54,443 nt of DNA from a virus: the IMG/VR virus record IMGVR_UViG_3300032093_000180, positions 1 through 54,443 of that record. One strand, given 5' to 3'. Below, in pieces: positions 3,867 through 21,464 of this stretch. Every line of letters starts with the position of its first letter. Position 1 is the stretch's first letter. The notes below the pieces were generated by a model. It was not told the origin of the DNA. It ran no database searches and saw only the letters and a list, made by a program, of their open reading frames with translations. A program made the position numbers and the translations under genes.

Positions 3867-4479
3867 CGAGATGCAGAAGATTTTGAACGAGTGGCAAGAC
3901 AGTGAGAGCGCCTCCGTGCAGCAACAGCCCGCTCCACGGCAAACTTACCGCAGCATCATCCACAACTACATCAAAGACAACCCTGGGACCACCACAGGGC
4001 AGGTGCTGAAGGCCATGCAGAACAAAGGACTTGCACAGACCCACAGTTCTGTGTCCTCACAGATGACGACCATGTTCCAAGAGTTCATGGTCAGGCGGGA
4101 AGAGGGAGCGATTGATAAGGCGACCGGGCGCAAGATTTACACGTACTACTACGTGCCACCACTGGAATCCGTCAAGCTCAAGGCCGAGCATCTCCGCAAG
4201 AAAGCGCAGGCGCAGGCACGTGCTGAAAAGGCGCGGCAAGCCAAGGCCCTGAAGGCTGAAGCCAAGCAGCGGGCACAGAATATGTTGCATGAACAGTTGG
4301 CGTTGCCCTTGGCGCTCCCGGTGCCCGAGGTTCGCCCTGTGGAGGACGCTGCACCAGCGCCAGCACCCCAAGCCGCCCCTAACCTGCGTGACATGAGCGC
4401 GATGGACATCCTCCACGCCATCAACTTTGCACAGGCCAAGGAGTTGTACAAAGAACTCAAAGAAGCATTCGGAGGTTGA
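3850..4479 (+). CDS. Putative winged-helix regulator-like protein
   Basis: 209 residues from ATG 3850 (GGAG at 3839-3842). Residues about 33-105 look like a winged helix: two helices (YRSIIHNYIKDNP, TTGQVLKAMQNKG), a serine-rich recognition-like helix (HSSVSSQMTTMFQ), then a basic wing ending IYTYYYV. A Lys/Ala/Gln-rich charged helix (120-160), a Pro/Ala linker and a C-terminal helix follow. It probably binds DNA, with target unknown. Confidence 0.6.
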   Translation: MGNMSDEMQKILNEWQDSESASVQQQPAPRQTYRSIIHNYIKDNPGTTTGQVLKAMQNKGLAQTHSSVSSQMTTMFQEFMVRREEGAIDKATGRKIYTYYYVPPLESVKLKAEHLRKKAQAQARAEKARQAKALKAEAKQRAQNMLHEQLALPLALPVPEVRPVEDAAPAPAPQAAPNLRDMSAMDILHAINFAQAKELYKELKEAFGG

Positions 4480-4937: not shown

Positions 4938-6799
4938 ACATCCTTACGGTCGATTTTGAGACCTACTACACCAGCACCGATCTGGGCTTCAAGAAACAGA
5001 CCACGGAGGAGTACGTCCGTGATCCACGCTTTGAAGTGATCGGTGTGTCGGTGCAGGTAGATGGTGGCTGGCCCGAGTGGTTTAGCGGCACAAAGGAAGC
5101 CACCAAAGAGTGGCTGCTGCAATTCGACTGGGCCAACAGCATGGCGCTGGCACACAACGCCCTGTTCGATATGGCAATCCTTAACTGGCACTACGGCATT
5201 CGCCCCAAGGCGATTGCTGATACGTTGAGCATGGCACGGGCCATACACGGCACTGAGGTTGGCAACAGCCTCGCCAAGCTGGCCGATTACTACAAGCTGG
5301 GGGTCAAGGGCACAGAGGTGGTGAGCGCGATTGACCTGAAGCGGGAAGATTTTCCTCCCGCAAAGCTGAGAGCGTACGCCGAGTATTGCCGCAATGACGT
5401 AGCGCTGACCTATGACTTGTTCCTGCACCTACTGCCCAAGCTCACACGCGGTGAGCTCAAGCTCATCGACCTGACCATCAGGATGTTTACAGAGCCTGTG
5501 TTGACGCTGGACAAGCCGTTGCTGCAAGCGCATCTTGCTGATGTACGTGAGCGCAAGGCCAAGCTGATGGAGGCTGCCGGGGCCAACCTTGATGACCTCA
5601 TGTCCAACCAGAAGTTTGCAGAACTGCTGCGCGGGTTTGGCGTCGAGCCACCAACAAAGATCAGCCCGACAACGGGCGAGTTAACGTTGGCGATGGCCAA
5701 GAGCGATGAAGGGTTCAAGGCGCTGGCCGAGCACCCTGATGAGCGGGTGCAGGTGCTTGTGGCTGCGCGTCTGGGCAACAAGACCACACTGGAGGAGACC
5801 CGGACCGAGCGGCTGCTGGGTATCGCGGATCGAGGAGTGATACCTGTTCCTCTCTCCTACTACGCCGCCCACACGGGACGGTGGGGTGGGGCCGACAAGC
5901 TCAACTTCCAGAACTTCCCCAGCCGGGGTGAGAACGCAGGCAAGCTCAAACGGGCCATCCTTGCGCCTGAGGGTCACGTGATGATCGACTGTGATTCGTC
6001 GCAGATTGAGGCCCGGGTGCTAGCATGGTTTGCGGGGCAGGATGATCTGGTGGAGGTGTTTGAGAACAACAACGCTGAGATTGCCGCAGGGGTCAAGAAG
6101 AAGGACATGAAGTATGACCCGTACAAGCTCATGGCCTCAGCCATCTACGGCAAGGGCGTGGAGAACATCACTGACCCCGAGCGGTTCGTGGGCAAGACCA
6201 CCATTCTGGGCAGCGGGTACGGCATGGGCAGCGCCAAGTTCAAGGCGCAGCTTAAGACGTTTGAGGTTGAGATTTCGGACGACGAGTCCGCCCGCATCAT
6301 CAACACATACCGTGAAACATATCCGTGGATACCGGCGCTATGGAAGGCGGGCTCCGCCGCCATTGAAGCCATGTCCAAGGGCAAGACCGCCAAGTGGGGA
6401 CGCAAGGGCATCATTGACATCCAGAAGGAAGGCATCCTCATGCCCAACGGGCTGCACCAGCGGTACCCCAACCTGCGAAAAGTCAAAGACAAAGACGGCA
6501 AAGAGCAGTATATTTATGACTCCCGCAAAGGGCCGGTCAAGCTCTACGGGGGCAAGTTGACAGAGAACATCTGTCAGGGATTGGCACGTTGCATCATCGG
6601 TGAGCAGATGCTGCGCATTGCCAAACGGTACAAGGTGGTGCTCACCGTTCACGATGCCGTGGCGTGTATTGCACCCGAGGCAGAGGTTGAAGAGGCGATG
6701 GCGTATGTCATGGAGTGCATGCGCTTTGTGCCCGAGTGGGCGCAGGGCATACCACTGAACTGTGAGGCTGGATACGGGAGGAGTTATGGCGACTGCTGA
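4934..6799 (+). CDS. DNA polymerase, family A, with 3'-5' exonuclease
   Basis: 621 residues, the replicative polymerase. The proofreading domain has exo I D7-F-E9, exo II HNALFD (74-79) and exo III Y151-C-R-N-D155. The polymerase palm shows motif A IDCDSSQIEAR (351-361), motif B around K421 to Y429-G-M-G and motif C HDAV (573-576). No 5'-3' exonuclease domain is present. The size fits compact phage T7/Pol I-type enzymes. It starts with an ATGA overlap. Partner proteins nearby are the primase-helicase and a possible ssDNA-binding protein. Confidence 0.95.
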   Translation: MNILTVDFETYYTSTDLGFKKQTTEEYVRDPRFEVIGVSVQVDGGWPEWFSGTKEATKEWLLQFDWANSMALAHNALFDMAILNWHYGIRPKAIADTLSMARAIHGTEVGNSLAKLADYYKLGVKGTEVVSAIDLKREDFPPAKLRAYAEYCRNDVALTYDLFLHLLPKLTRGELKLIDLTIRMFTEPVLTLDKPLLQAHLADVRERKAKLMEAAGANLDDLMSNQKFAELLRGFGVEPPTKISPTTGELTLAMAKSDEGFKALAEHPDERVQVLVAARLGNKTTLEETRTERLLGIADRGVIPVPLSYYAAHTGRWGGADKLNFQNFPSRGENAGKLKRAILAPEGHVMIDCDSSQIEARVLAWFAGQDDLVEVFENNNAEIAAGVKKKDMKYDPYKLMASAIYGKGVENITDPERFVGKTTILGSGYGMGSAKFKAQLKTFEVEISDDESARIINTYRETYPWIPALWKAGSAAIEAMSKGKTAKWGRKGIIDIQKEGILMPNGLHQRYPNLRKVKDKDGKEQYIYDSRKGPVKLYGGKLTENICQGLARCIIGEQMLRIAKRYKVVLTVHDAVACIAPEAEVEEAMAYVMECMRFVPEWAQGIPLNCEAGYGRSYGDC

Positions 6800-7517
6800 C
6801 CCCCGAAGGGGCAAGGTGTTGAAGGGAAAGACACTCCCCTACGGTACGCTCACCATGAGCGAAGGAGACAGTGTGATCAGGCACGCCTATTACTATTACG
6901 GCTACCGCCACGACGAAGACATGCCCCCACTGCCACACATTGAGCCTGATGAGCAGGTGGTGGACCCAGAAGAAGAGTTGTGGGAGAAAGAAAAACAGGC
7001 ATACATTAAAGACCTGCTGGATGGGTTGACCCCCCGGGAGGCCAAGATACTGCGTATGCGGTTCGGGATTGAGTTAGATCATGATATGTCTCTTGAAGAA
7101 GTAGGCAGCACGTTTGATGTATCCCGTGAGCGCATACGACAGATTGAAGCCAAGGCGATCCGCAAACTCAAGCACCCGGACCGAAAACTGCGAGAGGTTA
7201 TTTACCCAGAGATCAGCTTCTACTGGAAGAAGCAAAGCGAAGCCAGACTGCGTGAACGCATGTTTGAGATTGAGATGACACAGATGGGGTGGGCTTGGTA
7301 CCAGCGGCAGTTAGATGGGCGTATCTCCTTCATCAAACACCCCAAAGCCAATTCATGGATTGAGCACATCAAATTAACTAACCCAAACCTTCACAGGCGA
7401 ATTGAATATGAAGTCAACCGATACCTCAATGACATCTTCACTAATCGACTACGCACACCCGTGCATGATGGCCGAGAACGCTCTGAAAGAGGCGCACAAG
7501 CACATGCTAAACCGTGA
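6786..7517 (+). CDS. Sigma-70 region 4-like protein
   Basis: 243 residues from ATG 6786 after GGGAGGAG. An acidic N-terminus (residues 42-72) leads into a clear sigma-70 region 4: LTPREAKILRMRFGI (81-95), then a helix-turn-helix SLEEVGSTFDVSRERIRQI (102-120) and EAKAIRKLKHP. Region 4 recognises the -35 element and contacts the RNA polymerase beta flap. Regions 1-3 are absent, so it cannot act as a full sigma. It may recruit or redirect host RNA polymerase. The remaining 110 residues are unrecognised and basic-aromatic. Confidence 0.88.
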   Translation: MATADPRRGKVLKGKTLPYGTLTMSEGDSVIRHAYYYYGYRHDEDMPPLPHIEPDEQVVDPEEELWEKEKQAYIKDLLDGLTPREAKILRMRFGIELDHDMSLEEVGSTFDVSRERIRQIEAKAIRKLKHPDRKLREVIYPEISFYWKKQSEARLRERMFEIEMTQMGWAWYQRQLDGRISFIKHPKANSWIEHIKLTNPNLHRRIEYEVNRYLNDIFTNRLRTPVHDGRERSERGAQAHAKP

Positions 7518-7608
7518 TTACGATGAAGCCATCGAGCAGGCCCTCGACGCAATTGTCGAAACAAGGCTGATGATCAACGCCATCAGGCACATGAAGGGCG
7601 ACCAGTGA
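7408..7608 (+). CDS. Small early protein, MMAENALKEAH family
   Basis: 66 residues from ATG 7408, overlapping the sigma-like gene by 110 bases. The helical pattern AENALKEAHKHMLNRDYDEAIEQALDA resembles a single tetratricopeptide-like pair, and VETRLMINAI follows. Similar short proteins sit next to Cas4-like nucleases in other phages. An internal start near 7465 (MMAEN) would shorten the overlap. The stop overlaps the GTG of the next gene. Confidence 0.65.
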   Translation: MKSTDTSMTSSLIDYAHPCMMAENALKEAHKHMLNRDYDEAIEQALDAIVETRLMINAIRHMKGDQ

Positions 7609-8291
7609 AAAACCCCCCTGCATGGAGTTACTCCAGCATCACGCTGTTTGAGCAGTGCCCCAAGAAGTACTACCACCTGCGGGTGGCCAAAGACATCAAG
7701 GAGCCTGACAGTGAGGCCATGATGTACGGCAAGGACGTACACACGGCAGCGGAGAAATTCATGCGGGACGGCACCCCATTGCCTGAGAAGTATGCGTTCA
7801 TGCGTCCGATGCTGGAGAAGCTCCAAGCCATACCCGGTGACAAACACTGTGAACTCAAGATGGGCCTCAAGAAGGTGGACGGGCGGCTTATGCCGTGCGG
7901 CTTCTTTGACAAGGAGGTGTGGTTCAGGGGAGTGGCTGACCTGTTGATCATCAACAAGGACAAGGGTGAGGGGCGCGTCATTGACTACAAGACTGGCAAG
8001 AGCGCCAAGTACGCGGATACCAAGCAGCTTGCCCTGATGGCGGCATGTGTGTTTGCGCACTTCCCAGAGGTGAAGGTGGTCAAGTCAGGGCTGCTGTTCG
8101 TGGTGAGCGAAGAGTTTGTAAAGGCGCAGTTCAAGGCTGAGACTGGCTACAGTATCTTTTCAGAACTCGATGACACACTGACCGCCAGAGAGGCCGCGTA
8201 TGAGTCCGAGGTGTTCAACCCCAAGCGTAATTTCAGTTGCAAGGCGTGGTGCCCTGTGCTAATCTGTCCGCATAATGGAAGGAGCGAATGA
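7605..8291 (+). CDS. Cas4/RecB-like PD-(D/E)XK exonuclease
   Basis: 228 residues from GTG 7605. It opens with the RecB-nuclease motif SYSSITLFEQCPKKYY, then GKDVHTAAE (His46), GVADLL (Asp112), VIDYKTGK (Asp127, Lys129) and a Gln141 helix. A single early Cys18 and a C-terminal C-x3-C-x4-C (212, 216, 221) match the split iron-sulfur cluster of Cas4 and AddB nucleases. It probably processes DNA ends during phage replication or recombination. No CRISPR genes are present, so the name implies fold only. Confidence 0.88.
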   Translation: MKNPPAWSYSSITLFEQCPKKYYHLRVAKDIKEPDSEAMMYGKDVHTAAEKFMRDGTPLPEKYAFMRPMLEKLQAIPGDKHCELKMGLKKVDGRLMPCGFFDKEVWFRGVADLLIINKDKGEGRVIDYKTGKSAKYADTKQLALMAACVFAHFPEVKVVKSGLLFVVSEEFVKAQFKAETGYSIFSELDDTLTAREAAYESEVFNPKRNFSCKAWCPVLICPHNGRSE

Positions 8292-8797: not shown

Positions 8798-10345
8798 ATG
8801 GAGATCATTGAGAACAAGGCACTGCTGCTGACAGTGCGCAACCCGGATCGGATCACAACCGTGATTCCGAAGAGCAAGGTACTGGAGCATGGTGACGGTA
8901 TCGCCAGAGTGCTGGTCAACTGGGGGCTTGAAGAGTCCATCATCCTCAAGAACTTAAAGATCAACGCACCCTCACCCATCACCGGCCGTTACAAATGGCC
9001 CGGGCTCAACAAACCGTTTGAGCACCAGAAGACCACTGCATCTTTCCTCACCCTCCACCGCAGGGCGTTCTGCTTCAACGAGCAGGGGACGGGTAAGACT
9101 GCCTCCGTCATCTGGGCATCGGACTACCTGATGAACCTTGGCATCGTCAAGCGGGTGCTGGTCATCTGCCCGCTGTCCATTATGGATGCTGCCTGGAGGG
9201 GTGACCTCTTCCGGTTCGCCATGCACCGCAGGGTTGATGTTGCCCACGGCAAGCCCGAGAAGCGCAAAGAGATCGTGCTCGGAGATGCGGAGTTTGTAGT
9301 CATCAACTACGACGGTGTTGAGATCGTCGCTGATGAGATTAAGAAAGGTGGCTTTGACCTTGTGGTCGTGGATGAGGCCAACGCATACAAGAACCCGCAG
9401 ACCAAACGCTGGAAGGTGCTGAACTCTCTGCTCACACCCAACACATGGCTGTGGATGCTCACTGGCACCCCGGCATCTCAATCGCCTGTGGATGCCTATG
9501 GTCTGGCCAAGCTGGTCAGCCCGAACAACGTGCCACGCTTTGGTGGTGCGTTCAAGGACTTGGTGATGAACAAGGTCACGCAGTTCAAGTGGGTGCCCAA
9601 ACCCAACGCGCAGACCACGGTGCATAAGGTCTTGCAGCCTGCCATCCGGTTCACCAAAGAGCAGTGCCTGGACCTGCCTGAAATGTCTTACACGTTCAGG
9701 GATGTACCGCTTACCGCCCAGCAGATCAAGTACTACGAGCTACTGCGCAAACAACTGATCGTACAGGCCGCAGGAGAAGAGATCACCACGGTCAACGCAG
9801 CGGCCAACCTCAACAAGCTGCTGCAACTCTCAGGCGGTGCGGTGTATTCCGACACTGGAGAGATTGTGCAGTTCGACGCCAGCAACCGCTTGGCGGTGTT
9901 GCGTGAAGTCGTTGAGGAGTCAAGCCATAAGGTGTTGGTGTTTGTGCCATACAGACACGCCATCGAGTTGGTGTCCGAAGACCTAAAGAAGCACGGGTAC
10001 AGCACCGCCGTGATTCACGGGGGCATATCCGCAACCAATCGGGCCGACATCTTCCAGCGGTTCCAGACCCAGCCAGACCCACAGGTGCTGGTCATCCAGC
10101 CGCAAGCCGCATCACACGGCGTCACCCTCCATGCCGCAAACACAATCGTGTACTGGAGCCCCGTGATGTCCGTGGAAACGTACCTGCAATGCAACGCACG
10201 TGTGCATCGCGCAGGGCAGAAGAACCCCTCGGTGGTCGTCCACCTGCAAGGCAGTGGGGTGGAGAAGAGGATGTACGCCATGCTCAAAAACAAGATGGAC
10301 ATCCACATCAAGATCGTGGACCTCTACGGGGAACTACTGAGTTGA
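8798..10345 (+). CDS. SNF2-type superfamily 2 helicase/ATPase
   Basis: 515 residues from ATG 8798, 5 bases after TTGGAG (8787-8792). An in-frame TTG at 8771 is less likely. Helicase motifs are in order: FEHQKTT (Q-like), GTGKT (97-101), motif II DEAN (192-195), TGTP (222-225), then the second RecA fold with VLVFVPYRHAIEL and the arginine-finger motif QCNARVHRAGQ (464-474). This is the compact SNF2/Rad54-like phage type, a DNA translocase probably acting in replication or recombination. It follows the structured gap, so its expression may be controlled separately. Confidence 0.92.
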   Translation: MEIIENKALLLTVRNPDRITTVIPKSKVLEHGDGIARVLVNWGLEESIILKNLKINAPSPITGRYKWPGLNKPFEHQKTTASFLTLHRRAFCFNEQGTGKTASVIWASDYLMNLGIVKRVLVICPLSIMDAAWRGDLFRFAMHRRVDVAHGKPEKRKEIVLGDAEFVVINYDGVEIVADEIKKGGFDLVVVDEANAYKNPQTKRWKVLNSLLTPNTWLWMLTGTPASQSPVDAYGLAKLVSPNNVPRFGGAFKDLVMNKVTQFKWVPKPNAQTTVHKVLQPAIRFTKEQCLDLPEMSYTFRDVPLTAQQIKYYELLRKQLIVQAAGEEITTVNAAANLNKLLQLSGGAVYSDTGEIVQFDASNRLAVLREVVEESSHKVLVFVPYRHAIELVSEDLKKHGYSTAVIHGGISATNRADIFQRFQTQPDPQVLVIQPQAASHGVTLHAANTIVYWSPVMSVETYLQCNARVHRAGQKNPSVVVHLQGSGVEKRMYAMLKNKMDIHIKIVDLYGELLS

Positions 10346-10361
10346 GGAGGAGAAAAAAACT

Positions 10362-10390
10362 ATTGACAATGACACTCTGTCAATTATACT
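10362..10390 (+). promoter_or_regulatory. Sigma-70 promoter with embedded operator-like palindrome
   Basis: -35 TTGACA (10363-10368) and -10 TATACT (10385-10390) are separated by 16 bases, close to consensus. The perfect inverted repeat ATTGACA (10362-10368) and TGTCAAT (10378-10384) has a 9-base centre, covers the -35 and spacer, and could bind a dimeric repressor. The expected transcription start, about 10396-10398, falls directly at ATG 10399. Confidence 0.7.
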
Positions 10391-10398
10391 GGGCCCCC

Positions 10399-10791
10399 AT
10401 GAAAACCAGACTACCGCTGCCTCCTGCTGCGCACTTGCATGAGTTGTTTGTCTACAAAGATGGCCTGCTTATATGGCGGGAGAGCAGAAAACACGGCAAG
10501 GTAAAGGCAGGTGCAGTTGCTGGATGGAAGTCCAAAACGGATGGATATGTTCGGATATGTATAGAAGGGATGCAGTACGCCGCGCATCGCTTGGTATGGC
10601 GCATGCACAACCCTCGCGGGGCAATCCCATTCATTCTTGACCACATTGACGGAGACCGTTCAAACAATCGAATCGAAAATTTAAGGAAAGTAACACCCAC
10701 TGAAAACAGACACAACAGAAGACCCCGGAAACAAGGGGTTGTTGGATCAGGTAAGTTGCAGCAGCTTTTACAAGAAAGGAGATCACAATGA
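10399..10791 (+). CDS. HNH homing-type endonuclease
   Basis: 130 residues. A classical phage HNH core: AAHRLVWRMHNPRGAIPF, then LDHIDGDRSNNRIENLR with the His/Asp/Asn residues, and V-T-P-T-E-N-R-H-N. The usual C-terminal AP2-like DNA-binding part is replaced by a short basic tail, so it may be shortened. The start is uncertain. ATG 10399 lies at the predicted transcription start of its own promoter and would be leaderless. In-frame ATG 10369 follows GAGGAGG (10344-10350) and could be used from operon transcripts. It looks like an inserted selfish gene. Confidence 0.85.
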   Translation: MKTRLPLPPAAHLHELFVYKDGLLIWRESRKHGKVKAGAVAGWKSKTDGYVRICIEGMQYAAHRLVWRMHNPRGAIPFILDHIDGDRSNNRIENLRKVTPTENRHNRRPRKQGVVGSGKLQQLLQERRSQ

Positions 10792-15509: not shown

Positions 15510-15696
15510 CGGAGTGCCAGTCGTAATAGAATGGCACAAATTCGCAGTTGGCAGTTCGTTTTACATACCTACGCTGACGCCTGATACGCTGGCAGGGGAT
15601 GTGGAACAAGCTGCTAAAGAGCGAGGGATGGTTGTGAAGTACCGTTTCTCCAAAGAAGGGGGCACTTACGGGATTAGGTTCTGGCGGATTAAATGA
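15493..15696 (+). CDS. Small protein at end of early operon
   Basis: 67 residues from ATG 15493, overlapping the primase-helicase end by 17 bases. A GTG at 15514 is possible. No clear Shine-Dalgarno site is present. PDTLAGDVEQAAKERGMVVKYRF, then GGTYGIRFWRI suggests a small alpha/beta fold. The function is unknown. It is the last plus-strand gene before the terminator. Confidence 0.55.
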   Translation: MTITNSGVPVVIEWHKFAVGSSFYIPTLTPDTLAGDVEQAAKERGMVVKYRFSKEGGTYGIRFWRIK

Positions 15697-15743
15697 CCAT
15701 GTGCTACAGTTCGCTCGGCAACATGGTCTCCTTCTCTCTGTAG
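15696..15743 (+). other. Interleaved inverted repeats, possible RNA pseudoknot
   Basis: ACCATGT (15696-15702) pairs with ACATGGT (15721-15727), and CTACAG (15704-15709) pairs with CTGTAG (15738-15743), in the order A-B-A'-B'. This is an H-type pseudoknot topology lying between the last stop codon and the terminator. It may protect the 3' end of the early transcript. It could also be chance, since each stem is only 6-7 bp. Confidence 0.35.
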
Positions 15744-15762
15744 TTGCCTTACCTCCATTACA

Positions 15763-15789
15763 CCCCGGGTACCCCCCGGGGATTTTTTT
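15763..15789 (+). terminator. Rho-independent terminator of early operon
   Basis: The stem CCCCGGG (15763-15769) with CCCGGGG (15775-15781) encloses a TACCC loop and is followed by A and seven T. On the plus strand this is a standard intrinsic terminator ending the early operon just before the convergent late operon. It lacks a U-tract in the leftward direction. Confidence 0.9.
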
Positions 15790-15791
15790 AT

Positions 15792-18700
15792 TCAAAAAAG
15801 TTCTTCAGCCGCGCTGATCAGTTCTTCGCGCATCCGCTTGTTGATCTCGATGCCCTGGTACATATCCCGGGAGATGGCGTCACGTGCCTTGACGGACTTG
15901 GTGATGGTCGAACCGGAGATACCCAGGTCAGGGTACTTGTCCCCCAGAGCGAACAACTTATCCTCGATGGCGTCCATGCGCTCTTGGTCACCCATGTTCA
16001 GGGCAATGTAATACTGCTTGAGAAGCCTCTTGGCCTGACCAGCGGTGGCGTCTTCCTTACCCTTGATGTAGGCGTTCTCTTCGTACTTGGTCAACAGATC
16101 GGCAGGGGCGAAACCCAGCACTTGCATGGCGGCGTTGGCACCATTGACCTCACCGACAAGATCACCCCGCAGCGTCAGCGCACCCTCGTCTGCGTAGCGG
16201 TACGCCTTCATGGGGTTCTTCAGCGCCACAGGCAGCATGGTCTCCACTCCGCGCCAGAATTGCCCTTCAGCAATCAACTCCTGACCCCGGAAGACGTTGT
16301 TGACCACCGCGTATGGAGCGCCAAGGATGTTCTCAAGGAACTGAGACAGCGCCGAGGCGTCTGCCTTGTCACCCTTCTGATCGCGGTAGATCAAGTCCGT
16401 CCAGCCCACACGGTCTGCGATACCAAGGTTGGTGATGTAATTCACTGGCCCTTTGAACCAGAACTCGTTCAAGTAGCGGCGCAACATCTCATCAAAGGTA
16501 TCCTCGTCGTCATCGGCAAATGCGTTGTAGACAGTCTCGGGAATCCAATACAGTGGGATGCCTTTGGCACCAGCAAAGAGCGCGGACATGGCGTAGATGC
16601 CAAACAACTGGCGACGAGCGGCGCTGACCAATTCCTTTTGCTCGGGTGTGGCGTCAGGTGGTACGGGCAATGACCTGCGGATGGTGTCAAACAGCATGTA
16701 GTACATGGTGAAGGCAAACCGCTTGAACACGGTCAGCACTTTGCCAAGACCTTGCTGGGTAATACTCGGAGCAGATTCTGCATGCCCTGCACCGTGCGTG
16801 AACTCCACCATGCGGATGGCTTTGTCGATGGCCTGAGCCTGAGCGGCCTCTCCCCTTACACCCTTTTTAGCCAACCGCTGCATCTCAAGATCATAGGCAG
16901 CAATTGCCGTGACCTCACGGTTCATACGCTCGGCATGGTGGAACATGAACGAGGAATACAGCGCGGTCTTCTCCCCCAACGTCTTCATCACACTGGGGTC
17001 CCCGCTGGGATCATTCGCCAACCCCAAGGCGTCACGGGCCGTCGACGTTTGCAAGAAGCCAAGGTCTTTGAGACGCTGCACCAGCGCCTTGTACTGCGGG
17101 GCTTTACCTGCGTTGACCAGATTCTCAACGGACAGCATGGCGTTTTCAGTCACCTTCTGCCCGTTGATGTCCGTCACCGTGCGGCTAAAGCTAGATGTTG
17201 AGTACAGCTTAGTCGCTGCTATCAAAGCCCTGCCAGCAGCAGCAAAACCATATGTACCACCCAACTGCGGGAAGGTGACCATCGGTGTCTGCAACAAGTT
17301 AATCGTTGCGGAGGAGACGTTACCTGCAAGGTTGAAATAAAACGCGGCACCGCTGGCCCACCGTGCCCACCGTTCAACAGTCGGGTCCATCGCAAACTGA
17401 AGCCGGGACTCCAGTTCTTGCAGAATCTCAGCGCCCCGCTGCTGGTCAATACCGCGTAACTTCTGAGCCGTCTGGCCCATGTTATCTATAAGACCTTGCA
17501 GCTTGTCCGAGTACCGCATGCGTGAAAGCTGGCCCACCAAATTGTTGGTGACGTTGCTGAAGGCCGTGGCGGCGTTCTCCTCATAGCCCAACGTGCCTTT
17601 ACGCGCCGTGAACGATTTGAGGATGCTGGTCTCTGGCATGGCACTGACGATCAGGGCCAAGAACTTATCAACCGCAGCATCCTCCGCACCGCCCTCTTTC
17701 ATGATCTTGATGATCTGGGCAGCGATGGTGCCGCTGGGTGCCCTGCGGGCTCTCTCCCCCTCGACCTTCATGTACTCATCAAAGTCGGTGGCTCCCTCTT
17801 GCTCAAGGGCGTTACGGGCAGTGGTCCGCTCAATCTGGCTGTTGTAGAGCTTGCGCTCCATCTCGCCATCTCTGTTCTTGAACTCCAGCCAGTAGGTACC
17901 CTGACGGTACAGTGGCGCGTAGTGGTCGATGCCCTTGGCGATGATCATGCCGATCACCTTCTCGTAGGCACCCAATGCCTGCTTACGCTCTGGGGTGCCC
18001 TCACCATGCACACCCACTAGGTTGGCATAGAGCGAGTCCTGCAACTCCTTGAAGAGTTGTTTGTATGAGCCGAACAGATCACGGTAGAGCTTCTGACCTT
18101 CAGGCGTGAGAGTCTTGAAGTCCTTGCTGAACTGTGCATGCAGTGCGGCCTTCTCCGTGTTGGCGTACTTGCTGACAGGAGCCTCAGGGTTGATGTCCTC
18201 CCGAGTGTGGTCATGGACCATCTTGGTCCACTTGTTGAACTCAGGGTTCTGGACGTACTTTTGCAGCCGGGTGTTCAACGGGGCAAGTTTCTCAATCAGG
18301 CTTTCACGGTACCCGGCCATCTCGTTGACGGTATCGGCAAACGTAACAGCATCACGCCCAAGGATGCGCTCCCCCACCTCCCCCACGGCAGAGAGGTTCA
18401 AGAACTTCTGCAAGCCTTGGCGCAGAGTCAGCCCTCCCACCTCCACAGCCGAGAGGAACCGTGAAGCCTGCTCAGGCGTCATCCGGGTGTGCTTCTGGGT
18501 CAACTCACTGGTCTTGTTCAGCACCTTCTGGAACGTGCCAGGGTTGTGAATAGTCTGCGCAAACAGCGTATCGCCCGTGCGGGAGTCCGGTGGCGGCCCC
18601 ACGATGCTGTCGAGCAGCCGGTCAATCTGATCGAGCGTAGGCTCAGTGCGTTCTGGCAGTCTGAAGGCGCGGCGCATCAGGCGCATGAGCTTGTCCCACA

Positions 18701-21464
18701 TTGACAGAGCGGGTACTTCAGATCGCTTCTCTTTCAACTGAGTGCGGAAGGCATCGTTGCTCCAAATCTCAGCCACAAACTCTTGCAGGTTCTTCGCCCC
18801 ATAGGCCCCGTCGATATCCGCTTTGACTTGCTGGAATATCTTGTCCAGTTGCCGGGTGACAGGGTGCGACGGGTTTGCAATGATGTGGGACAACCCCGCA
18901 TGAGACGCCTCATGGATGAGGTCGTAATCGGTCGCATCTTCGGGCAGGTAGATGGTGTTGGTCGCAGGGTCATACATCGCCTGCTCCGCCCCGTACACAA
19001 CCTTCACATCTCCCAGGATGTTGGAGAGTGTTTCAGCAAGGCGTGTCAGACGCGGCTGATCCGCAGATTCAGCAAAGAGCTTCAATGCTCTGGAGAGATC
19101 ACCCCGACGAAGCGCAGCCTCAACCGTAGGGTGGAGTGAAGTGGAGAGTTGAGCAACCTCAGGCGAGGACAGCAGTGCATCCAGATCGGAGTCAAGGATG
19201 GGTATGTAATCCTCATCAACCTGCTCCATCTCACGGATGGCCTTGCGGGCATACTTCCGGGCTTCTGATTTGGTACGGCTCTTCTGTTTGATGCCGTAGT
19301 TCTTCAGTTCCTGTTCGGTCGTCAGTTCTGCTGGAGCCGCCTCCACCTCTTGCCGAATAGCCGCCTTTTGTTCCTGCTGCTTCTCAAGTTTCTTGCGGAA
19401 CTTGGTGGAGCGTTGCTGCTCCTTGGTGTACTGGTTGATCCACTGATCCAGATACGCAACCTGCTCAGGGCTCAGATTGGCGCGTGCCCACTTATCGGCA
19501 TTCTTGGCGTGAACGCCCCCCTGACCACGGAACATCGTGGCTTCTCTCTCGCTGGCAAAATACGCCTCATCGGGCAACGCCTTCATCTTGGCGTTACGGT
19601 ACGCCGTGGGCTGGTACACCAGATCATTGGCAATGTTGCGCAGTGCCGTTTCAGTATCTGCACGGCCAAAGTACGCCTTGGCGTCTTTCTCCTCTGGAGT
19701 CAGCGCCTTCTTGTCCAGCCCCTGGACTTTGGTGATGTCGGCGGCGGTCTTAGGCGGGGCCTTCTTGCGCGTCCGCTTGGGCTTTGTTTCACGTGAAACA
19801 GTGGGTGCCGGGGCCTCGGGTTCAGCAGTGGTTACTGCACCGGGCTGTCCTGCTTCTCTAGCAGGAGGCTGTCCAACATCCGATGCAGCAGGAACCACTC
19901 CATCTGGTTGAGGTGCTCCAACTCCTGCGGGGGCGGCTCCAGCAACGGGCTCGCCAGCCACGCCAACGCCTGCTCCACTTGTTGGTTCGATAGGTTCTGT
20001 AACACTGGGGGCTCCTTCCTCCAGGGGCTTGGCCTGAATCTGCTCCAGTGCGCCTGGGGTTATGGTGGGTACGCTTGTGGCGTCTACCGGCGCTTGCACA
20101 GACGGGGCTTCAGGGGCAGGACGGATCATGCCCTGCTCATCTGGAGTCGCTGTAGCGAAGGCACTCATCTCCGCTTTCTTGGCATCCAGAGTAGCCAACG
20201 CGCCTTGTTTCTCCTTGATGGCGGCATCCAACTCGGCATACGCTTCAGACCCCGGGCGCGACTCATCCATACGCGCCTGAAGGGCGTTTATCTCATCGCG
20301 GGTGTACCTGAAAGCCGTCTCAAGTTCTTCTTGGGAGATGGGGGTATCCATCTTCCCAGAGACCAACGCATCAATACGCCCCTGCAAGGGGGAGGCGCCT
20401 ACCTTCGCCGCAGCCTCTTGCTCGGCCAACGCCTGCTGGGCTTCTTGGGTGTTGGTGAAATCCTTCTTCTCCGTGAAGTACCGGGACACCCCAATCGGCG
20501 CACCAAACAGGCCACCACCCACCGCACCTTTGACGAACGCCTCTTTATACTGCTGGATGTTCTCGGGGGAGAGCAACTCCTGGGTACTACCCGCAAGCTG
20601 CTGCGCGTAGACCTTAATGGCCTCTTGGGCCGATTCGGTCAGACCTTCAGACCCTGCGGTTTTGACCGCCTCTTTGCCGATGGTTTTCCATGCGACAGGA
20701 GCAGCACCGGACTTCTTGGCAAGCTCCTCAATAAGTTTCAGCTTGCCGTATCCACCGAGGGTATCAAGCACTTTGGCAGGCAACACAGAATCCAGAGCGG
20801 CGCTCAGGCCACCCGTCAAGGCAGCGATACCCGACTCAAAGTTGCCAGTCTCTTGATAAATGCCCTCAAAAATCTCAGGCGTGTTCTGCGCGTATGAGCC
20901 AAGGAACACACCACCATACATGCCACGGCGGGCCCCAACCTCAGCGGCTTTCTCCACACCAGCCAAGGCTACGCGAGAGGCGGGGCCAGCAGCCTGCGCA
21001 CTACGAAGCGCAGCCTGACCAGCCAGACGCCCACCAAGAACACCACCCCCAACACCGGGGATGAGTGCAGTGGCAACAGATGGCAACAACTCACCACCTG
21101 TCTCAACCACATACTCCAGCGCCTCGAACGGGCTGCTGACTTCCGTGTATGACTTGTATCTGGTGGGATACTTCTTCTCAAGCTCTGCGCGGCTGGCTTC
21201 GGCCTCACCCATCTGACGGCGGGCGTAGTCCTCAAAGCCCAAGGCGCTGCCAACCATAGCAGGCAGCACATCTCCACCAGCGATACCCAAGTTCCCCATA
21301 GAGCGCATGAAGGCGCGCTTGCCAATTGTGCTGAGACTGGCCTCAGGCTTTGGGAGTTTGAAATCGTACTTCGCTGCCAGTCGCCCAACCAGATCGTCGT
21401 ACTGCTCAGATGTGAGGTTATCTGGGAACTCGACCGGCCCCAGCTTTGGCAGGTTGACAATCAT
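15792..21464 (-). CDS. Very large polyvalent, probably injected virion protein
   Basis: 1890 residues. The N-terminal short module (PVEFPDNLTSEQYDDLVGRL) is typical of phage polyvalent/internal virion proteins. Gly/Ala-rich possibly membrane-active segments follow (about 105-175, 290-325), then a Pro/Ala/acidic linker with a basic KPKRTRKK (about 430-575), a zincin-like motif H851-E-A-S-H855, and a long helical C-terminal half. Position and size parallel T7 gp16-type ejection proteins. It probably enters the host with the DNA. The linker codons contain an exact parS sequence. It is the last gene of the late operon, with a 3-base gap from its neighbour. Confidence 0.75.
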   Translation of the reverse strand: MIVNLPKLGPVEFPDNLTSEQYDDLVGRLAAKYDFKLPKPEASLSTIGKRAFMRSMGNLGIAGGDVLPAMVGSALGFEDYARRQMGEAEASRAELEKKYPTRYKSYTEVSSPFEALEYVVETGGELLPSVATALIPGVGGGVLGGRLAGQAALRSAQAAGPASRVALAGVEKAAEVGARRGMYGGVFLGSYAQNTPEIFEGIYQETGNFESGIAALTGGLSAALDSVLPAKVLDTLGGYGKLKLIEELAKKSGAAPVAWKTIGKEAVKTAGSEGLTESAQEAIKVYAQQLAGSTQELLSPENIQQYKEAFVKGAVGGGLFGAPIGVSRYFTEKKDFTNTQEAQQALAEQEAAAKVGASPLQGRIDALVSGKMDTPISQEELETAFRYTRDEINALQARMDESRPGSEAYAELDAAIKEKQGALATLDAKKAEMSAFATATPDEQGMIRPAPEAPSVQAPVDATSVPTITPGALEQIQAKPLEEGAPSVTEPIEPTSGAGVGVAGEPVAGAAPAGVGAPQPDGVVPAASDVGQPPAREAGQPGAVTTAEPEAPAPTVSRETKPKRTRKKAPPKTAADITKVQGLDKKALTPEEKDAKAYFGRADTETALRNIANDLVYQPTAYRNAKMKALPDEAYFASEREATMFRGQGGVHAKNADKWARANLSPEQVAYLDQWINQYTKEQQRSTKFRKKLEKQQEQKAAIRQEVEAAPAELTTEQELKNYGIKQKSRTKSEARKYARKAIREMEQVDEDYIPILDSDLDALLSSPEVAQLSTSLHPTVEAALRRGDLSRALKLFAESADQPRLTRLAETLSNILGDVKVVYGAEQAMYDPATNTIYLPEDATDYDLIHEASHAGLSHIIANPSHPVTRQLDKIFQQVKADIDGAYGAKNLQEFVAEIWSNDAFRTQLKEKRSEVPALSMWDKLMRLMRRAFRLPERTEPTLDQIDRLLDSIVGPPPDSRTGDTLFAQTIHNPGTFQKVLNKTSELTQKHTRMTPEQASRFLSAVEVGGLTLRQGLQKFLNLSAVGEVGERILGRDAVTFADTVNEMAGYRESLIEKLAPLNTRLQKYVQNPEFNKWTKMVHDHTREDINPEAPVSKYANTEKAALHAQFSKDFKTLTPEGQKLYRDLFGSYKQLFKELQDSLYANLVGVHGEGTPERKQALGAYEKVIGMIIAKGIDHYAPLYRQGTYWLEFKNRDGEMERKLYNSQIERTTARNALEQEGATDFDEYMKVEGERARRAPSGTIAAQIIKIMKEGGAEDAAVDKFLALIVSAMPETSILKSFTARKGTLGYEENAATAFSNVTNNLVGQLSRMRYSDKLQGLIDNMGQTAQKLRGIDQQRGAEILQELESRLQFAMDPTVERWARWASGAAFYFNLAGNVSSATINLLQTPMVTFPQLGGTYGFAAAGRALIAATKLYSTSSFSRTVTDINGQKVTENAMLSVENLVNAGKAPQYKALVQRLKDLGFLQTSTARDALGLANDPSGDPSVMKTLGEKTALYSSFMFHHAERMNREVTAIAAYDLEMQRLAKKGVRGEAAQAQAIDKAIRMVEFTHGAGHAESAPSITQQGLGKVLTVFKRFAFTMYYMLFDTIRRSLPVPPDATPEQKELVSAARRQLFGIYAMSALFAGAKGIPLYWIPETVYNAFADDDEDTFDEMLRRYLNEFWFKGPVNYITNLGIADRVGWTDLIYRDQKGDKADASALSQFLENILGAPYAVVNNVFRGQELIAEGQFWRGVETMLPVALKNPMKAYRYADEGALTLRGDLVGEVNGANAAMQVLGFAPADLLTKYEENAYIKGKEDATAGQAKRLLKQYYIALNMGDQERMDAIEDKLFALGDKYPDLGISGSTITKSVKARDAISRDMYQGIEINKRMREELISAAEELF
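19785..19800. promoter_or_regulatory. Exact parS-type 16-bp palindrome inside a coding region
   Basis: TGTTTCACGTGAAACA is identical to the consensus parS site bound by chromosomal ParB proteins in most bacteria. It encodes V-S-R-E-T (residues 556-560) in the Pro-rich linker of the polyvalent protein. A specified 16-mer is expected about 1.3e-5 times by chance in 54 kb. No ParB-like gene is seen here, so any ParB would come from the host. Confidence 0.8.

Follow-up and report, generated by a model that had tools for sequence, protein, structure and literature searches.

A putative orphan parS site, kept in single copy and apparently relocated between genes, in a lineage of freshwater phages

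The 54,443 nucleotides of viral DNA analysed here (IMG/VR record IMGVR_UViG_3300032093_000180, hereafter the window) contain, within a large protein-coding gene, a 16-base sequence identical to the core of a bacterial chromosomal parS. This site is genuine and chance is ruled out as its origin. The lineage to which the window belongs is a group of freshwater phages, most of them represented by metagenome contigs. Comparison of these sequences indicates that the site is repeatedly relocated under selection on the DNA. We consider it probable (about 60%) that the window sequence is an orphan chromosomal-type parS, i.e. a putative loading site for host ParB that has been retained by selection.

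The sequence TGTTTCACGTGAAACA, at 19785-19800, is the only parS-like sequence in the window at up to three mismatches. It is a 16-base palindrome of the kind accepted as parS, and it equals the core of the 22-base parS that was co-crystallised with Caulobacter crescentus ParB (PMC8367383). The exact match and its identity with the chromosomal consensus, both proposed in the initial annotation, were thus reproduced. The chance figure given there, 1.3e-5 (54,428/4^16), is correct for a site named in advance. In addition, 1e-3 degenerate 14-base cores are expected in the window under an order-2 Markov model, synonymous re-coding of its 10,672 codons yields 0.002 cores, and the probability of this particular spelling of V-S-R-E under the codon usage of the window is 2.3e-3. 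The features of the window that are needed below are as follows.

19785-19800, strand ".": parS 16-mer TGTTTCACGTGAAACA, position A; the minus strand reads GTT TCA CGT GAA ACA (V-S-R-E-T)
15792-21464, minus strand: gene of the 1890-residue polyvalent protein, which holds position A; DarB-like phrog_10089, Pfam LPD39
17728-17741, minus strand: position B, here GCA CCC AGC GGC AC (A-P-S-G-T), without parS
15510-15791, strand ".": convergent boundary between the rightward early/replication genes and the leftward late operon
7605-8291, plus strand: exonuclease-like gene (phrog_69), which contains position C
8181-8194, plus strand: position C, here ACC GCC AGA GAG GC (T-A-R-E-A), without parS

As first described, the V-S-R-E-T peptide of position A corresponds to residues 556-560 of the 1890-residue polyvalent protein. 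The containing gene was also described as structural; its location around the 16-mer stands, but a structural role is not established for this DarB-like/LPD39 protein. The polyvalent gene closes the leftward late operon. Positions A, B and C fall within one 11.6-kb stretch that spans the convergent early/late boundary, a clustering in which we would at most infer some meaning. The polyvalent protein also carries an HExxH zinc-metallopeptidase-like motif (H-E-A-S-H, residues 851-855, window 18900-18914, minus strand), both histidines and the glutamate of which are invariant across ten relatives. Elsewhere in the window, a sigma-factor-like gene (phrog_351, 6762-7517) adjoins the DNA polymerase gene and is a candidate phage transcription switch. 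An HNH endonuclease gene (10189-10791) overlaps the end of the helicase gene and is likely mobile; besides the near-identical G003, just two distinct relatives among those tested had a match to it.

When IMG/VR was scanned with the polyvalent protein, 38 relatives were obtained, 14 of which carry parS at up to two mismatches, as compared to none for the reversed control. Copy number was determined with the degenerate core GTTYCACGTGRAAC in 18 contigs, namely the window and 17 relatives longer than 32 kb. The core occurs exactly once in 16 of these (the window and 15 of the 17 others) and twice in none, and these 16 cores compare with 0.023 expected from an order-2 Markov model. Two contigs outside this set, G017 (40 kb) and G025 (29 kb), have no core and stop short of the exonuclease position; the distant G032 and G036, whose polyvalent proteins are 30-34% identical, have none either. 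Six shorter contigs (G001, G002, G008, G009, G015 and G016) carry one core each. Consistently, in a hypothesis-free tally of all 14-base palindromes over 17 lineage genomes, GTTTCACGTGAAAC was found in 8 and GTTCCACGTGGAAC in 6, the next best being found in 2. Most core-less lineage contigs stop before reaching position C. This does not hold for G029, G021 and G031, where the site at C is mutated (2, 1 and 2 core changes, respectively) and the sequence examined contains no intact core elsewhere, which indicates that loss or alteration of the site is possible. A further scan with the primase mostly returned relatives already known and gave no new position. Searching related genomes for parS at any position, as the initial annotation had suggested, thus revealed a site that is almost always single.

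The site occupies at least three places, each common to members of a clade and not homologous between A, B and C. Position A, at polyvalent codon 556, is used in the window, G001 and G003. In G004, GTTTCACGTGGAAC is found at polyvalent codon 670 (A2), in a linker that cannot be aligned, and possibly represents a gain separate from A. Position B, near codon 1366 of the polyvalent gene, carries GTTCCACGTGGAAC in nine genomes, read as GTT CCA CGT GGA AC (V-P-R-G-T), whereas most relatives without the site have V-P-S-G-T or A-P-S-G-T at this place. Position C, close to the 3' end of the orthologue of the window's exonuclease gene (7605-8291), carries GTTTCACGTGAAAC in nine genomes, read as GTT TCA CGT GAA AC (V-S-R-E-T). 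In a supported lineage tree (37 rows, 4335 columns), both main clades include carriers of C, among them G007, next to the B clade, and G002, within the subclade of the window. This distribution suggests an ancestral C from which the site later moved to A, A2 and B; we infer this direction as the simplest history. The reading frame of the site is identical throughout, but this is weak evidence, since one of the two alternative frames would insert a TGA stop.

Codon-level comparison points to selection on the DNA rather than on the peptide. Across the nine carriers of B, every pairwise comparison shows the same four core codons. This stretch alone ranks first among the 622 four-codon windows of the gene, while the fifth codon and its neighbours vary; in four diverged B carriers, it is once more the sole leader, of 402. 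In the nine carriers of C, the core codons are invariant and their window shares the first rank among 89. In genomes that have the site at another place, the codons at C drift: G010 has GTG TCT AGA GAG ACA, the window encodes T-A-R-E-A and others encode V-A/T-R-E-T. The test applies to positions B and C; the case for A itself rests on near-identical genomes. The conservation beyond coding need that is expected of a parS, and that the initial annotation had proposed to look for in homologues, was hence observed at two other positions, together with the excess of cores over chance. In G010, V-S-R-E-T is encoded at the exonuclease position in the absence of parS, which indicates that the peptide can persist alone. 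Synonymous drift combined with absence of parS elsewhere had been named beforehand as evidence against the site; G010 has drifted at C but has parS elsewhere. Overall, the evolutionary predictions hold in a stronger form than proposed, relatives having kept parS while moving it between at least three positions.

The initial remark that the phage shows no ParB is borne out by domain searches. ParB_N was found in none of 39 records (the window and 38 relatives), HTH_ParB in none of 21 lineage records and the ParA-type AAA_31 domain in none of 18, so that no phage-encoded ParA or ParB was recognised in the records searched. Accordingly, neither the window nor any of the long relatives tested showed the self-contained ParABS of phage-plasmids, with ParA and ParB on their own replicon. 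Tyrosine integrase (PF00589), the one lysogeny gene searched for, was absent from 16 records; on this integrase criterion, a temperate phage or phage-plasmid with a tyrosine integrase was rejected. The partition and integrase searches gave positives in well-known control genomes.

Host leads were also sought. No near-identical cultured phage was found by DNA, no prophage relative in a genome scan with the polyvalent alignment and no tRNA gene in the window. Matches in a capsid scan were contigs from bins labelled Burkholderiales, Rhodobacteraceae, Gammaproteobacteria, Chitinophagales and others, a scatter too mixed for naming a host. Taken together, about one site per genome, its rebuilding after loss and the lack of partition genes suggest that these phages borrow the segregation machinery of their hosts.

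Two cultured phages share the major capsid family of the window, the HTVC023P-type pelagiphage HTVC027P of Pelagibacter (65% identity) and QDWS535 of Alcaligenes (OK172329; 50% identity). Like members of the lineage, each has one parS core, but at a different position: between annotated genes in HTVC027P, and in a 165-base annotated ORF (3879-4043) within a sparsely annotated stretch in QDWS535. Neither encodes a ParB_N domain. HTVC027P is reported to be obligately lytic, with a latent period of about 18 h (PMC12753301). Since their hosts are known, both phages are testable models. The core is absent from six further cultured phages of the capsid family (HTVC023P, DSL-LC04, 023Pt_psg01, Pag-Yong1, CRP-902 and Caulobacter GB2A), and parS at two mismatches was found in none of 50 records, many of them fragments, from the wider family defined by the window's terminase, which indicates that the site does not characterise the capsid/terminase group as a whole.

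Beyond these relatives, exact parS is present in at least 120 IMG/VR contigs as compared to one for the reversed control palindrome, which suggests that the effect may be general, and ParB_N is absent from 46 of the 50 parS-bearing contigs tested. Among cultured phages, at least 213 records match parS and none match the control palindrome, the figure of 213 being a lower bound obtained with a doubled 32-base query that lists matches of about 17 bases or more. Six sampled parS phages (of Lactobacillus, Gordonia, Clavibacter, Ruegeria and, for two, Microbacterium) lack ParB_N. Some of the phage records, such as fragmentary Listeria entries, may be host DNA, and likewise some IMG/VR contigs, so we take the wide survey as a lead; the lineage result is independent of it. 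Several very small phage records of about 4-6 kb, among them PQ006135 (bajarodino virus 6, 5910 bases), PQ006097 and Microviridae records, also match parS, in some cases at as many as about seven places (14 in 5.9 kb when strands are counted separately).

The closest functional parallel is phi29, which has four copies of TGTTTCACGTGGAACA in 19.3 kb (at 10445, 15903, 17243 and 18760), three within annotated genes and the fourth immediately following gene 16. According to the account in PMC9437464, which cites Meijer 2005, Spo0J, the ParB homologue of the host, is implicated in the trapping of the phi29 genome in spores. Like phi29, which is virulent, the window has a chromosomal-type parS without ParA or ParB of its own, its virulence resting on the absence of integrase. 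Unlike the lineage studied here, with its single site of changing position, phi29 has four sites, a sporulating Gram-positive host and experimental support; the phages are unrelated and the comparison is one of mode of action only. A second parallel is SGI1, a mobile element that stabilises itself with mimic parS sites and the ParABS of an IncC plasmid, i.e. with the partition system of another replicon (PMC10954446). However, SGI1 is integrative, exploits a plasmid and has two copies with demonstrated binding and stability, whereas the lineage consists of phages with a chromosome-type parS. Finally, bacterial chromosomal parS, as in C. crescentus, has the same 16-base core (PMC8367383), but it clusters near oriC and serves a resident parAB, while the window site is single, lies in a phage gene and has no parAB beside it.

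The orphan site would most likely act in cis, through segregation, anchoring or SMC loading. ParB-CTP clamps load at parS and then slide (PMC8367383, PMC12704722). After injection, clamps of host ParB would load at the phage site and slide over flanking kilobases; host ParA would act on the ParB-loaded phage DNA, host SMC would be loaded, or both. The phage genomes would thereby be held on the nucleoid or moved along with the chromosome, and be positioned, compacted or distributed. Slow infections might benefit by retaining and distributing phage genomes through host growth and division; alternatively, genomes might be held where replication and packaging work best. A single site per genome would suffice and its exact location would be unimportant. 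According to the relevant statements in PMC5521831 and its reference 38, one parS is enough for chromosome segregation in Pseudomonas aeruginosa.

Among the alternatives, titration fares best, although we regard it as unlikely: replicating one-site phage genomes would soak up host ParB and stall segregation or division, so that resources are freed or the cell is kept undivided. Such genomes would presumably soon exceed the few chromosomal parS sites, and SGI1 destabilises its helper plasmid partly via competition for ParABS (PMC10954446). However, titration should reward extra sites, whereas each lineage carrier has one intact core, and loss of ParB is non-lethal in P. aeruginosa (PMC5521831). 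Slightly less likely still is transcription control, in which ParB spreading from the site would, for example, damp or delay flanking phage genes. P. aeruginosa ParB does repress genes near parS3 and parS4 (PMC5521831), and A, B and C are all near the early/late boundary; but the site is in different genes on both sides of that boundary, up to about 12 kb apart, and its distance to promoters is not fixed. Single copy and freely moving position thus favour a role in cis over promoter control or titration, without settling the question.

It is improbable that an unrecognised protein of the phage, and not host ParB, is what binds the palindrome. Many ORFs of the window have no assigned function and could include a diverged binder, but the sequence is the standard ParB target, the same site is found in unrelated phages of many hosts, and the ParB_N (39 records) and HTH_ParB (21 records) searches were negative. 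Chance or protein-coding constraint, to which the coding frame around the site and the V-S-R-E-T retained by G010 without parS could be ascribed, is refuted for the lineage by the excess of cores, by the three unrelated positions, by core codons that stay invariant solely in carriers of the site and by the control palindrome in both collections, and would be conceivable only for the window site taken alone.

An orphan parS in a virulent phage is known already from phi29. In the open-access literature, most subscription journals lying outside this search, we found SGI1 but neither a survey of orphan parS in phages nor a report of the kind given here. What is new is the single-copy rule, the relocation, the selection seen in the codons of two positions and the finding that such sites extend to lytic aquatic phages, some of them in culture. 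That one site has repeatedly been lost and regained is evolutionary evidence of unusual clarity that selection acts on the site itself. In a broader proposal, to which we give even odds, lytic phages widely carry an orphan parS as a relocatable borrowed centromere that hooks their genome to the host segregation/SMC machinery; phi29 would be one case of a strategy that evolved many times, with presence rather than position under strong selection. The window offers a precise, testable site, and HTVC027P, QDWS535 and phi29 are cultured models with known hosts. If the proposal is true, obligately lytic phages too, besides plasmids and phage-plasmids, would depend on host chromosome segregation.
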